Assembly: GCA_017381015.1 (NCBI GenBank)
Contig: JAFOCV010000119.1
Span: 1-33,713 of the forward strand
Source: Bacteroidaceae bacterium
GTDB taxonomy: Bacteria; Bacteroidota; Bacteroidia; Bacteroidales; Bacteroidaceae
Reading direction: 5' to 3'
DNA: 33,713 nucleotides
Part shown: piece by piece, positions 28,841 to 33,713 of the stretch
How positions within the stretch are numbered: the stretch's first letter is position 1
Layout: each line of letters starts with the position of its first letter
The notes under the pieces: generated by a model
The model's database searches: none
Seen by the model: only the letters and a program-made list of their open reading frames with translations
Told to the model about the DNA's origin: nothing
Translations under genes and position numbers: made by a program

Positions 28841-28912
28841 GGTCCCTTCGTCTATCGGTTAGGACGAGAGATTTTCATTCTCTAAAGAGGAGTTCGACTC
28901 TCCTAGGGACTA
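28841..28912 (+). tRNA. tRNA-Glu (anticodon UUC)
   Basis: A full cloverleaf: acceptor GGTCCCT with AGGGACT (first pair G-U), anticodon stem AGAGA/TCTCT (28867-28871, 28879-28883), loop TTTTCAT with anticodon TTC at 28874-28876, T-stem AGGAG/CTCCT with loop TTCGACT, and discriminator A at 28912. The CCA end is not encoded, as is common in Bacteroidetes. rpsT starts 29 nt later. Confidence 0.95.
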
Positions 28913-28941
28913 CAAGTTAAAAAGAATTATATTAATACAAC

Positions 28942-29196
28942 ATGGCAAATCACAAGTCATCTTTAAAGAGAATCCGTCAGGAGGAGAAGAGAAGACTCCA
29001 TAACAGATATTACGCTAAGACCATGCGTAATGCTGTACGCAAGTTGCGCGCTACAACAGACAAGGCAGCAGCTATCGAAATGTATCCCAGCGTTCAGAAG
29101 GCATTGGATAAGTTGGCTAAGATTAACGTAATCCACAAGAACAAGGCTTCTAATTTGAAGAGCAAGTTGGCTCGCCACATCCAGAAGTTGGGTTAA
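28942..29196 (+). CDS. rpsT: 30S ribosomal protein S20
   Basis: An 84-aa primary 16S rRNA-binding protein, very basic and helical, beginning [21 protein letters not shown] and ending [13 protein letters not shown], as in the family. It is 29 nt after tRNA-Glu with no promoter between, so both probably come from one transcript that is cut at the tRNA 3' end. A strong terminator follows 32 nt after the stop. Confidence 0.97.
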
Positions 29197-29228: not shown

Positions 29229-29260
29229 AACGACTTCCCTCAAAAAGGGAGGTCGTTTTC
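29229..29260 (+). terminator. Rho-independent terminator of rpsT
   Basis: AACGACTTCCCT (29229-29240) pairs with AGGGAGGTCGTT (29246-29257), 12 bp with one G-T pair, over a 5-nt loop, followed by TTTTC. It marks the end of the tRNA-rpsT unit and of the core-gene part of the window. Confidence 0.88.
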
Positions 29261-29278
29261 TGTATTCCAGGTACATGT

Positions 29279-30013
29279 ATGGGCTCAGTAGAAATTTACT
29301 GGGCACTGACGAGGAAAGACAAGACTCATGCTTGTAATAATCAAACTGCGACAAATGAATCAACGGTACAGAAGTCTGTTTTTCTTTTGGAGGCAATGCC
29401 AGTTTATAATGAGTCAGAGAGTATTGATACCATTAGTGAAGCAGAAACCGCTGAAGAGATAAGCGAGGCTGAGGTTGCAGAAGATGTGTGTGCGGCAGAG
29501 GCAGGAGAACTCGCAAAAGAAAGTCATGCCAGTGTAACCTACCAGCAGGGTATTAATGATTTTTATCAGAGTCAGGCAGAAAACCAAAAGAAAAAGCTGG
29601 ACACTATTCATGAATACCTTTTATACATCATGTCCCCTTTTATTTACGAGGAAGACATGGACGAGTTCTGTACAGATCTTTTGAGATTCGCAATGGACCA
29701 CAACTACCGCCCTGAAGTTGAGTGGAAGAGATACAAGCCTAAGCTGAGCAGCTTCGATGTCCGCCATCTGGTCTGGAGCATTGCAACGAGGTTGGGACTG
29801 GGTAAAGGCAAGGTTTACAGCAACGATGATTGCGCCTGTTATATCGAACGCCGTTTTGCTTCATTGTGCGTAACAGCCAGTGAGGAGTCATTGTCGCATA
29901 GCACACTCAGAAACCTGACTGTCACATCCAACAGCGACCAGATTCACTGCGATTACCCTAGGAAAGACGGACTGTTATTCCATATTCCCTTACAGTTGGG
30001 TAGCTCATGTTGA
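29279..30013 (+). CDS. Hypothetical protein with acidic N-terminal region
   Basis: I do not recognise this 244-aa protein. Residues about 45-85 are strongly acidic with a repeated pattern (ETAEEISEAEVAEDVCAAEAGELAKE). Residues about 90-205 look like a compact helical domain (FYQSQAENQKKKLDTIHEYL, FIYEEDMDEFCTDLLRFAMD, SFDVRHLVWSIATRLGLGKG, CACYIERRFASLCV). There is no signal peptide or membrane segment. The start is uncertain: ATG 29279 has a CAGG 8 nt upstream but lies just after the rpsT terminator, while ATG 29396 follows a GGAGG that is too close. A hairpin, GCTCAGTA/TACTGGGC, sits at 29283-29304. The 3' end overlaps the convergent primase-helicase gene by 9 nt. Confidence 0.55.
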   Translation: MGSVEIYWALTRKDKTHACNNQTATNESTVQKSVFLLEAMPVYNESESIDTISEAETAEEISEAEVAEDVCAAEAGELAKESHASVTYQQGINDFYQSQAENQKKKLDTIHEYLLYIMSPFIYEEDMDEFCTDLLRFAMDHNYRPEVEWKRYKPKLSSFDVRHLVWSIATRLGLGKGKVYSNDDCACYIERRFASLCVTASEESLSHSTLRNLTVTSNSDQIHCDYPRKDGLLFHIPLQLGSSC

Positions 30014-32842
30014 TTTCTGTAATGAGTCTAATAGGTTAGATGCTATCTCTGGATTTTTGAATCGAATAAGATTATCTTCAAGGGAACGATATCCAAGAAT
30101 ATTGACACTGCCGTACCAAATCGTACTTTTGTCAATAATGGCAGCATGAAGAGAAAGATGGTCATTGTAGATGACAGAAATTCCCTGATGTTGTATACGT
30201 ATTGCGTCATCATTCTCTTCTTTAGTGTACAACACTATCTCTATACCATTAGCCATTAAATCAGCAAGACGGTCTGCTATCTGTGAGTGTCGTCCTATTT
30301 TTATTTTCGGGCATGAGACAACAACTGATTGCCTGGCCTTTGATAAGTCGGTGATAAATGGCGATTCAAAGTTCTGGCCGTCGTAAATCACATCAGTAAT
30401 AGGAAATAGGCTATCAAAAGCCTCATTGTTTCGGATTCTATATCCGATGGAAGCATAACCTTTCAAGCGCTTGCGATACATGGACTCACATACAGGAACA
30501 CGGATGTCAATGTAGTCATATATCTGGACATCTTGTTTGCCTTCATACTCCCGATGCAAACGTCCTGCATATTGGGCCACGATGCCTTTCCATGCTACTG
30601 GAGATACAAGAAACAGCGTGTCAAGCCTTGCATAGTCAAAGCCCTCGCCAACATATTTTCCTGTAGCGACTATGACAAACGGCTCTGATGATGGAATAGA
30701 TTGTAGTTGTTCCATCTTTTGTCGTTTCTCCTTGGTGCTTTCAGATCCAATAAGAGTGATGACATTTGGACAATGAGGTTTAAGCAATTCCGCCAATGTT
30801 GCCACATGGGAGGTTCGACTGGTAAGGATGATGGGAGAGCGACCTTCTTTCAGAACTTCAATAACATCCTTGACGATAAATAAGTTTCGATATTCATCCT
30901 TTGCCAGTTGCTCAGCGACCTTTGTATACGAGAGATCGCTACCAACAATGGGCCTGAATGATGTAAAACGAGGTACCAGTAAACGCTCGAATGTCTGGCT
31001 TAACATCTGACTCTTTGCGTCAGCACTGTATCTAATCGGACCACACTGCATGAAGATGATGGGTTGGTGTCCATCTTTACGAATGGGTGTTGCAGTCAAA
31101 CCATATACATAATGAGCATTAGTGGCTTTAAGTATCTGCTCAAAGTTTACAGCTGATACATGGTGGCACTCGTCTGCAATCACCATGCCATATTCCTTGA
31201 CGAAAGGCTTTACATTATTGTCGGATATACACGACTGCATTAAGGCAATATCAATGATGCCATGAAGTTTGTTACCAGTTGATGATAAGGTGCCAATAGG
31301 CGAATGCGGCTTTCTTCGTTTGAGCTTGCCATCTTTCTCCATTGGGACTGTGTCAATCGTCAAAAACTGCTCCAATGCCTTTACCCATTGGTCAAGTAAG
31401 GCTTTTGTGTGAACAAGTATCAGCGTGTTTACTCCACGTCTTGCTATCAATCCTATTGCTGTCACAGTTTTACCAAATGCAGTTGTAGCGGAGAGTACAC
31501 CATTATTATTGGATGCCAAGACATTGACTGCCTCTTGCTGATTGTTTCTTAATACGCCATTGAACTGAACGGAAATCGGTTTGCCATGGTTGCTTTTGTC
31601 ATCAATTCGATAAAGAACACCCTTTTCCCTTAGCAACGTAATCACAGCATCCTCGCATCCACGAGGTAAAGCGAGATATTCATCATCTATGTCTGCACAG
31701 GAAATGATGCGCGGCGTTTGATAGGTTGACAGTCTCAATGCCTGTTTGCTGTAAAAATCTGGATTTCGGAATGAAGCAATTCGCCTAAGATGATTGAGAA
31801 CTTTTGATGAAAGATGGCTCAGAGGTATATAAAGCATGTTTGACATAGTGACGACAACCTCTGATGAAAAATCGCTTATTTCTATTTTTGTTGGCACAGG
31901 AACTTCCCATGGCTTTCTCTCACTGGTCTTTGAAAGCTCACCAAGAGGCTGAATGCTGGAAGCTCTTTTCAAAATATCGTCCAGCAGCTGCTCAGAGAGC
32001 TTGCCAACATTCAACAGATATTCCCATTGATCAGGGTATGGTTCAAAATCCTCATCTACAAACACACTATTGCCGTGTTTTCTGGCATTTCCCTGTAGCG
32101 GCAGAGCAACTAAATTACCAAGTCCTCCTTCCGGCATCGTATCTTGATTTGGAAAGAAACGGTCGTATGATTTGAAACCGATTTTCCCGTTTCTGCTCAT
32201 CGCCTCAGTAAGTATGGCATTGCCAAGTCTTCGAGCCTTGACTGCCAGCACAGAGGTCTCAAAGAAAATCCATACATGGGCGCCATTGCCTGAACGGGAA
32301 CGCTCTACAGAGCAAGGAATACTCCAGCTCTTGCAGACATCAATGAATGCCAGCACATCATTTTGATATCTATGTTCGCAGTTCTTGTCATCAAAATCCG
32401 TACACAAAAGATGACAAGTGTTGTCTTCATTAAGAACATAAAGACCAATTACGTCCCTGCCGTCGGCATCTTTGCCTTCCAGATGTCGATAGATGTCATT
32501 CTCAGTAAGAGGCGAAAACTTACGATTGGGACAATCGGCACATTTAAATGTTCTCTTGTCGCACAGTGGAGCCCATTCATTCTGACATACGGGCTGGTAG
32601 CCTGCTTTCCCACTTGTTTTGCTGTACCATCTACGGGCAAACACGTCTTCACGCCCTTTGAAAAAGCTTCTAAACAAGTCCACCCTCTCTTGAAGAGGCA
32701 AATTTTGCATTGCCGTTGGGGTCTTTTCTGTGGGCGTGACGTCTTCGCCAAGCCTTTTTCTAAGCTCGGCATTCTCGGCTTCCAATTCCTTAATGCGCCC
32801 AAGTAGCCGCTCACGTTCTATATACCACTCCTGATGTTGCAC
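30005..32842 (-). CDS. TOTE-type primase-helicase with C-terminal PLD-like domain
   Basis: A 945-aa multidomain protein. Residues 1-33 are a coiled coil (ERLLGRIKELEAENAELRKRL). Cys86, 94, 101 and 104 form a zinc site. About 110-280 is an archaeo-eukaryotic primase domain with DFD at 149-151 and SGNGAHVW at 184-191. About 430-800 is an SF2 helicase with TAFGKT (454-459), DECH (557-560), GLTATP (581-586) and QYAGRLHR (757-764). About 838-930 is phospholipase-D-like, with IWYGSVN (908-914) but an altered HxK box. This matches the TOTE conflict-system primase-helicases thought to act against invading DNA; that function is inferred. The start codon is GTG at 32842, with an in-frame TAA 6 nt upstream. 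Next to it, 34 nt away on the same strand, is a DUF4143 ATPase gene. Confidence 0.85.
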   Translation of the reverse strand: MQHQEWYIERERLLGRIKELEAENAELRKRLGEDVTPTEKTPTAMQNLPLQERVDLFRSFFKGREDVFARRWYSKTSGKAGYQPVCQNEWAPLCDKRTFKCADCPNRKFSPLTENDIYRHLEGKDADGRDVIGLYVLNEDNTCHLLCTDFDDKNCEHRYQNDVLAFIDVCKSWSIPCSVERSRSGNGAHVWIFFETSVLAVKARRLGNAILTEAMSRNGKIGFKSYDRFFPNQDTMPEGGLGNLVALPLQGNARKHGNSVFVDEDFEPYPDQWEYLLNVGKLSEQLLDDILKRASSIQPLGELSKTSERKPWEVPVPTKIEISDFSSEVVVTMSNMLYIPLSHLSSKVLNHLRRIASFRNPDFYSKQALRLSTYQTPRIISCADIDDEYLALPRGCEDAVITLLREKGVLYRIDDKSNHGKPISVQFNGVLRNNQQEAVNVLASNNNGVLSATTAFGKTVTAIGLIARRGVNTLILVHTKALLDQWVKALEQFLTIDTVPMEKDGKLKRRKPHSPIGTLSSTGNKLHGIIDIALMQSCISDNNVKPFVKEYGMVIADECHHVSAVNFEQILKATNAHYVYGLTATPIRKDGHQPIIFMQCGPIRYSADAKSQMLSQTFERLLVPRFTSFRPIVGSDLSYTKVAEQLAKDEYRNLFIVKDVIEVLKEGRSPIILTSRTSHVATLAELLKPHCPNVITLIGSESTKEKRQKMEQLQSIPSSEPFVIVATGKYVGEGFDYARLDTLFLVSPVAWKGIVAQYAGRLHREYEGKQDVQIYDYIDIRVPVCESMYRKRLKGYASIGYRIRNNEAFDSLFPITDVIYDGQNFESPFITDLSKARQSVVVSCPKIKIGRHSQIADRLADLMANGIEIVLYTKEENDDAIRIQHQGISVIYNDHLSLHAAIIDKSTIWYGSVNILGYRSLEDNLIRFKNPEIASNLLDSLQKST

Positions 32843-32876: not shown

Positions 32877-33713
32877 TTAAAGGCCTGTAAGATCAAACTT
32901 ATAAACTTTTTCTTCTGCCTGTATTTGTTCGAAAAAGGTTATCATGTAGATGGGATAGTAAATAACCCTCCCCTTTATCTGAATATTCTCTTGACAGAAT
33001 ACATAAGCCATTGGTACAGCATATTCTTCATTCTCCATCACATTGGAAAGTGCATTATGCCGTTCATAGTCCTTACCAGACTTGACCTCTATCGGCAGCA
33101 TGTTACCAGCATACTCTACCACAAAGTCCAACTCTCCTTGCTTCTTGCTGTTGAAATAGTATAGTGAATGTTGCTGTGTTTCAGAGAAACCATGAGCATA
33201 CAGTTCCTGGGCAACAAGGTTTTCAAAAACAGAGCCAAAGTTGATGTTTGGATTCGGACTAAGCAATCTAGCCTGAATGTTCCCTCCATACATGGCAGCA
33301 AGCAGCCCTACGTCGTTGAGGAAAAGTTTGAACAGGTTTCGCTGTTTGTTCAGCAGTAGAGGGACTCGTGGCTCTTCGACATTATATGCAGGGATAGCCA
33401 CACCTGCATCCCTGAGCCATAAAAAACTGTTCTCGTATTTGCTGAACCGTGCCTTTTCGTTCAACTCTTTGAGAATAAAGCGTTTATTTTTTGCATTAAG
33501 CTCGGATGGTATAAGGTCATAGATTTCTTCTATCTGCAACTTGTGGTCATGATCATATTGGGTGATGTCTCTCTTATAGGTGCGAATGATTCCACGCTGT
33601 TCCTCATACACTCTGCGCAAGTTGTTAGTGTCAAGATACTTTTGAACAGCCGCGGGCATTCCTCCAACGATAAGATATAGGCGAATGGCCTCCAACATTC
33701 TCTTGTGAATAAA
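32877..33713 (-). CDS. ATP-binding protein with DUF4143 domain (5' end outside window)
   Basis: The C-terminal 278 residues of a AAA-ATPase/DUF4143 protein. The frame is open to the window edge, so the N-terminal P-loop ATPase part lies outside. An internal ATG at 33696-33698 is not the likely start, because the family sequence continues upstream (KRMLEAIRLYLIVGGMPAAVQKYL). DUF4143 has a nuclease-like fold; here QGELDFVVEY and LPIEVKSGKDYERHNAL form the E-D and ExK positions of the PD-(D/E)XK type. Family members are abundant in Bacteroidetes accessory regions and poorly understood. It reads into the primase-helicase gene (34 nt gap), so the two may form an operon. Confidence 0.85.
   Translation of the reverse strand, partial: FIHKRMLEAIRLYLIVGGMPAAVQKYLDTNNLRRVYEEQRGIIRTYKRDITQYDHDHKLQIEEIYDLIPSELNAKNKRFILKELNEKARFSKYENSFLWLRDAGVAIPAYNVEEPRVPLLLNKQRNLFKLFLNDVGLLAAMYGGNIQARLLSPNPNINFGSVFENLVAQELYAHGFSETQQHSLYYFNSKKQGELDFVVEYAGNMLPIEVKSGKDYERHNALSNVMENEEYAVPMAYVFCQENIQIKGRVIYYPIYMITFFEQIQAEEKVYKFDLTGL

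Follow-up and report, generated by a model that had tools for sequence, protein, structure and literature searches.

A primase-helicase with a pseudo-PLD domain and a recurrent type of upstream ATPase partner in a Bacteroidaceae accessory island

Our study reports on a primase-helicase gene and the ATPase gene upstream of it in a 33,713-nucleotide stretch of DNA from a gut-type Bacteroidaceae bacterium (assembly GCA_017381015.1, contig JAFOCV010000119.1). This stretch, hereafter the window, is an entire contig of a draft genome that is 84.6% complete. By alignment and structure prediction we find that the C-terminal PLD domain of the primase-helicase is a pseudo-nuclease in the Bacteroidota clade, a PLD relative by fold from which the catalytic residues are gone, and that ATPases of the DUF4143 or DUF234 type are a recurrent kind of upstream partner. 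We propose that the two genes form a mobile accessory cassette, most likely directed against invading DNA, and give the full model, in which the partner acts in trans, a probability of about 0.4. Public annotation speaks of a 'conflict system', yet the presumed effector nuclease of this clade is dead but conserved and no TBP is found. The question thus moves from what the PLD domain cuts to what the pseudo-nuclease senses and which protein kills.

The relatives compared here are the best 80 of 518 encoding stretches from a scan of GTDB genomes, a sample skewed toward close relatives and made up of Bacteroidota, three Clostridia and one Succinatimonas. The alignment has 77 rows, the window protein and 76 unbroken frames (L073 and L104 taken from the longer frame); the other four loci are split by stops or frameshifts and were left out. 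Seventy rows extend to the C-terminal motif and seven stop short. Both the histidine and the lysine of the catalytic HxK are lost in 67 of the 70 proteins, from Bacteroidota and the one Succinatimonas, and the window protein, with serine and histidine at the two positions, is among them. D904 and W909-Y910-G911 are invariant. The three proteins that retain HxK are all Clostridial (L100, L101 and L104); their counterpart of the window motif SLHAAIIDKSTIWYGSVN reads HQKFTVID...WYGSVN. Outside the 70, viral L180 keeps HxK, Bacteroidales L004 retains the lysine only, and L003 and viral L179 are without both residues.

The kinship with PLD proteins is seen in the fold. Of 21 members, 20 match PLDc_2 at an E value of 0.1 or lower, a C-terminal profile matches the MitoPLD, NucT and Nuc structures (E 1e-4 to 5e-4), and the AlphaFold2 model has the helix and strand pattern of the domain. 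The PLDc_2 match in the window protein (residues 830-939) scores 18.0 bits, under the cut-off of 27, against 42.5 and 49.4 bits in HxK-bearing L104 and L180. The preliminary description of this DNA had listed a PLD-like domain next to a primase and a helicase; that architecture is borne out by Pfam, alignment and model, while a working PLD nuclease is not supported, given the loss of HxK. Three pairs with unsaturated synonymous distances (window with L026, L027 and L037) gave ratios of nonsynonymous to synonymous substitution (dN/dS) of 0.078, 0.128 and 0.087 for the pseudo-PLD, against 0.087, 0.118 and 0.105 for the helicase. Because the two sets resemble each other, the substitution pattern shows a domain under purifying selection, one in use rather than decaying.

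The copies examined from Pseudomonadota plasmids and from E. coli lack the domain, their chain stopping shortly past the helicase, so the PLD appears as an optional module that Bacteroidales have retained as a pseudoenzyme. In a quick tree rooted at its midpoint the Clostridia fall within Bacteroidales (support 93 for the grouping with L102 from Alistipes, 96 for the larger group), and HxK may have been lost once or several times. Inactive HKD domains offer a further comparison: Pfam iHKD and the TrmB regulator each show weak profile similarity in 3 of 21 members, and TrmB structures match the pseudo-PLD weakly (E 0.2-0.6). In TrmB, an inactive PLD fold forms part of a sensor protein. More distant Bacteroidales copies (L007, L008, L009 and L011) carry about 325-332 residues after helicase motif VI without the WYG motif of the PLD; this stretch in L007 matched no Pfam family.

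The upstream gene ends 34 bp from the start codon of the primase-helicase. Judged by its full-length, 98% identical copy in L026, it encodes an AAA_14-DUF4143 ATPase; the PADLOC candidate model PDC-S01 matches the window fragment at 1.9e-113 and the full-length copy at 2.4e-195. L026 and L027 have both genes in full; identity to the window is 98% for the partner, across the 278 residues available, and 89-91% for the primase-helicase. Because DNA homology between the window and these two loci spans position 30010, at the gene end, through the end of the contig, the ATPase and the primase-helicase are, on this comparison, a unit shared among all three. As partner we counted the first upstream gene that runs in the same direction, encodes 150 amino acids or more and lies within 300 bp. 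Such a gene encodes an AAA_14-DUF4143 (19) or ATPase_2/DUF234-type (11) protein in 30 of the 80 loci, whereas among 573 other genes of these loci only 3 have an ATPase of these types upstream; contig edges account for 2 of the 80 loci and 73 of the 573 comparison genes. The other loci have AbiEii (5), AlbA_2 (6), another family (15) or no such neighbour (22). The preliminary description had pointed out a DUF4143 ATPase upstream, and by this count it belongs to a recurrent partner type. On a tree of 73 rows the DUF4143 partner label needs 10 changes, at least 7 of them on well-supported branches, which shows, as far as the tree reaches, that the upstream partner has repeatedly changed.

PADLOC has candidate or known defence models for both ATPase types, which it names PDC-S01 and PDC-S27, and for the AbiE genes. 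E388 and D390 are present in 18 of 18 DUF4143 partners, with an ExK pattern in 14 of 19, and D400, E414 and K416 in all 11 DUF234-type partners; the C-terminal domains of these partners probably belong to the PD-(D/E)xK superfamily. Partner dN/dS lies at 0.025-0.037 in four of four pairs.

The N-terminus of the primase-helicase varies fast and tends to track the upstream partner. Residues 1-51 gave dN/dS values of 0.300, 0.407 and 0.173 in the same three pairs. Among pairs with 80-90% identity in the core, region 3-50 is 83% identical in the 20 pairs whose partners share at least 60% identity and 67% identical in the 87 pairs with an unmatched partner; at 90-100% core identity the values are 87% (23 same-partner pairs) versus 68% (6 unmatched). 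These pairs are not independent, and core identity in the 80-90% class is itself higher for same-partner pairs (87 versus 83%). At 60-72% core identity the order flips, to 28% (7 pairs) versus 32% (690 pairs). In steps of 150 bp, L060 is 83-95% identical to the window over the DUF4143 gene and the first ~330 bp of the primase-helicase gene and 63-81% from there to the gene end, whereas L026 and L027 stay at 75-97% all along. The L060 partner is 97% identical to that of the window; its core is closest to L041, L030 and L029 (91-92%), whose partners are at most 31% identical to the L060 partner or unmatched. L060 thus looks like a mosaic, recombinant inside the primase-helicase gene. We treat the N-terminus as a lead toward the partner interface, short of proof.

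The enzymatic core is well defined. AEP-TOTE (PF22548), a family of archaeo-eukaryotic primase (AEP) domains, matches residues 52-289 (E 7.3e-97; 323.9 bits, cut-off 27), in agreement with the earlier assignment of residues 110-280 to an AEP. D149, D151, H189 and D227 are invariant in all 77 aligned proteins and supply the DxD, the histidine and, with D227 as the probable candidate, the third acidic residue of a primase-polymerase. Four cysteines, in line with the zinc cysteines noted earlier, are likewise invariant and form a probable zinc site. For the superfamily 2 (SF2) helicase, ResIII matches at 430-588 and DEAD at 433-588, and Helicase_C weakly (22.1 bits, cut-off 23.5). The Walker A residues G457 and K458 and the DExH/D-box residues D557 and E558 are present in 77 of 77 proteins and motif VI (Q757, Y758, G760-R764) in 74 of 74, so that the catalytic motifs of both enzymes are invariant or close to it. 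Among solved structures, CAPP-like chains (7nqd, 7nqf) are related to the primase part and XPB-type helicases to the motor. The AlphaFold2 model of the full chain (mean per-residue confidence, pLDDT, 84.4; predicted TM-score, pTM, 0.71) has a low-confidence break at 806-815. The closest NCBIfam models each score under their own cut-off, and no experimental work on the family appeared among the literature matches listed.

We infer a conflict or anti-invader role for the primase-helicase. In the model that we favour, the zinc, AEP and helicase core would bind and open aberrant, damaged or replicating invader DNA and may prime on it, while the pseudo-PLD would serve as a binding, dimerising or sensing surface, not as a nuclease. 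The partner ATPase would be the effector that cuts or kills in trans, its C-terminal PD-(D/E)xK-like ExD...ExK motif being the presumed cutting site, and helicase action would release or recruit it. The nearest proven logic known to us is that of Hachiman (HamAB), in which, according to PMC12278908, a sensor helicase releases a separate effector nuclease. It serves as a working analogy for the window pair: HamB models cover just 64-69 helicase residues of the window protein (best E 1.9e-5), and no HamA-type DUF1837 was found in the six window open reading frames (ORFs) scanned. The model makes the recurrent partner a concrete candidate and suggests what some common protein families of unknown function may do. 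A wider reading, which we consider unlikely, is that of a Bacteroidales-wide defence class in which one DNA-sensing core, a primase-helicase with a pseudo-PLD sensor, would be wired through its N-terminal helix and zinc module to many interchangeable effectors, ATPase-nucleases or toxins of the DUF4143, DUF234 and AbiE types.

Several observations weigh against the favoured model. None of the partners is obligatory, since 22 of the 80 loci lack a qualifying upstream neighbour and a different family takes the position in 15. The partner families were picked after the neighbourhoods had been seen, and the loci are related. A PADLOC match is absent for 3 of 10 upstream genes, and the PDC families are candidates only. 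DUF234 itself is under its cut-off in L028, ExK is absent from 5 of the 19 DUF4143 partners (the three of the L043 type and two pieces), and the partner genes themselves are split in L030 and L055. The PLD-less Pseudomonadota relatives are without this partner in the five loci read, and N-terminus and partner may travel together merely through adjacency.

The best-placed alternative, which we nevertheless consider unlikely, is that the primase-helicase helps a mobile element to replicate or persist by restarting or priming the copying of an integrative element or plasmid, the island being an eroded element. A relic of an integrase module adjoins the gene, and relatives turn up in 14 viral-contig loci and in 244 plasmid records, of which 71 cover at least 80% of the protein in one place. 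The PLD-less form sits on E. coli chromosomes (L195, L196) and plasmids (L192, L193) after AlpA/HTH, YfjI and inovirus-type Gp2 genes; of 5426 E. coli genomes, 868 match this form, and 681 of these have 80% or more of the gene. AEP proteins of mobile elements have been proposed as replication helpers, and PMC9751324 describes plasmid-stability defects in Thermus ppol mutants, but also an unaffected element copy number. In Bacteroidales, replication genes are not among the commonest neighbours, which are AAA/DUF4143, ATPase_2, AlbA_2 and AbiEii genes; integrase domains occur in just 5-6 of the 121 nearest genes scanned; and none of 50,697 phage records has a place over 80% of the protein. Among the phage matches listed (25 of 1504), similarity is mostly to the helicase.

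Next comes the possibility, also unlikely in our judgement, that the primase-helicase acts alone and that its co-location with DUF4143-type genes reflects crowding in defence islands and 5' linkage. It would account for the diversity of partners and their absence from 22 loci, for the other neighbours of the PLD-less E. coli relatives, and for the plenty of DUF4143 genes in some genomes, which are unevenly spread at 0-29 matches per genome across 21 genomes (G006, G093 and G097 among them). The 3 in 573 among comparison genes speaks against it, as do the mere four DUF4143 matches in the window's own genome, the often short gaps, and the single stretch that holds the pair in the window, L026 and L027.

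It is very improbable that the protein is a TOTE conflict effector whose own PLD domain is an active nuclease. Pfam and RefSeq names point to it. RefSeq 'TOTE conflict system archaeo-eukaryotic primase domain-containing protein', like the window protein, joins an AEP and an SF2 helicase in one chain. The HxK is gone, and TBP (PF00352) had no match in 101 genomes, the incomplete window genome included (the control was positive in 4 of 14, all archaea). TOTE stands for TPR, OB, TBP and Effector in PMC12458937. TPR and OB/cold-shock domains were found in none of the six window ORFs scanned and lie outside the 25 most frequent of 145 families among near neighbours (121 of 262 scanned). With the TBP search empty, we rejected a TOTE system in the strict sense for what the preliminary description had called TOTE-type: the protein belongs, by its profile match, to the AEP-TOTE family, and the locus fails the strict definition as far as tested. 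The E. coli form of the family has 786-788 amino acids without a PLD, whereas the window form adds the pseudo-PLD and the upstream AAA-DUF4143 partner. The Clostridial copies share the domain order of the window protein at 50-52% identity and, in two of three loci (both among the 30 above), a DUF4143 gene directly upstream; unlike the window they have an intact HxK, and L104, which alone was scanned in full, passes the PLDc_2 cut-off.

Least probable of all is a CRISPR-associated primase-polymerase (CAPP) serving spacer adaptation, which is favoured by the top PADLOC match (CRISPR-associated PrimPol, 281.6 bits) and the kinship with CAPP-like structures and opposed by 101.5 bits against a cut-off of 200 for the NCBIfam CAPP model and by arrays in just 1 of 230 sequences, none in the window (simple exact-repeat script; cas genes were not searched as such). 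CAPP and the window protein have the AEP catalytic domain in common, and one CAPP type carries a helicase domain, according to PMC8211822. The sole CRISPR-like array lies at about 12925 in L066, ~2 kb from the gene.

Table 1. Features at the primase-helicase locus, with positions in the window.
Feature	Positions	Strand	Details and basis
Conserved tRNA-Glu (28841-28913) and rpsT (28942-29196) at island edge	28841..29196	+	
Left island edge	29265..29309	.	Empty-site alignments, hairpin, mobile-element homology
Acidic ORF, probable N-terminally shortened relic of an integrase-linked mobile-element protein	29279..30013	+	
AEP primase - SF2 helicase - pseudo-PLD protein	30005..32842	-	945 aa, GTG start
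Pseudo-PLD domain, residues ~826-942	30017..30367	-	Helix/strand pattern in model; alignment, profile matches, AlphaFold2 model
Degenerate HKD motif, residues 897-904	30131..30154	-	SLHAAIID versus HxKxxxID in active relatives; alignment
SF2 (ResIII/XPB-like) helicase core, residues ~426-803	30434..31567	-	Pfam, solved relatives, alignment
AEP-TOTE primase-polymerase domain, residues 52-289	31976..32689	-	Pfam, solved relatives, alignment
Four-cysteine cluster, residues 86, 94, 101, 104; probable zinc site	32531..32587	-	Invariant 77/77
N-terminal long helix, residues 3-30	32753..32836	-	Single helix in AlphaFold2 model; predicted structure
DUF4143 protein	32877..33713	-	278 aa, N-terminus cut by contig end; ExD...EVK motif present; ORF list, Pfam, PADLOC PDC-S01

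The genomic setting marks the gene as accessory. Searches found the family in 21 of 200 relatives and in 29 of 392 Bacteroidota genomes, the window's own genome being included each time, a patchy spread that agrees with the earlier expectation of a gene that is not universal. The preliminary description had placed it just outside the conserved tRNA-rpsT unit, and comparison with 20 congeneric genomes, chosen from 82 with an rpsT match among 101, shows what stands there instead. A gyrB-type gene, which we presume to be gyrB from its sequence, directly follows tRNA-Glu-rpsT at 90-332 bp in 18 of the 20 and at 872 bp in one. The alignments of the two nearest empty-site relatives to the window stop at 29265 and 29268, just beyond a terminator-like hairpin at 29229-29257, and homology to a mobile-element gene begins at 29309. 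On these comparisons the primase-helicase lies in a variable island between rpsT and gyrB. The far edge is out of sight, because the gyrB-type gene has no match in the window and only a 37% match in its own genome. In the remaining congener (L154, G017), the gyrB-type gene is absent from the 6 kb taken, and a different set follows rpsT, with DUF2971 and AlbA_2/HATPase_c_4/Fic-like_C genes; judging from this set, the site may be an insertion hotspot.

The acidic ORF overlaps the end of the primase-helicase gene by 9 bp, and the preliminary description had noted its product as an unknown protein converging on that gene. It has no match in Pfam, PADLOC or PHROGs, and an NCBIfam match of 15.2 of 1021 bits, far under cut-off, was set aside. 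Relatives occur in 10 of 150 genomes (own included), all within the genus, and 7 of 10 other loci have a tyrosine-integrase-type gene on one side and a helix-turn-helix (HTH)-type gene on the other, the flanking domains being Pfam-named for L016 only. L016, the best-preserved relative, has a membrane-like N-terminus that is missing from the window copy. Given these empty searches and this integrase and HTH setting we rejected the ORF as a partner, for which the DUF4143 ATPase is the likelier candidate; the ORF is most likely what is left of a mobile-element gene linked to an integrase, the scar of an element at the site. In G020 its last codons adjoin a 92% identical primase-helicase end.

Congener copies of the primase-helicase in G013, G020 and G079 are fragments or are cut by contig ends. 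A suspicion of phase variation near residue 73, raised by breaks there in both L073 and L104 (a frame break in the latter), was dropped, as the breaks differ in kind and the window gene holds no homopolymer of six or more. Truncated N-termini of primase-helicases stand behind a DUF4143 gene in L014 (G079; 91-1437 and 1489-1779) and behind two genes in L013 (G013; 639-2458), which presumably encode an ATPase and an RloB-like protein. In both truncated copies similarity ends near residues 73-107.

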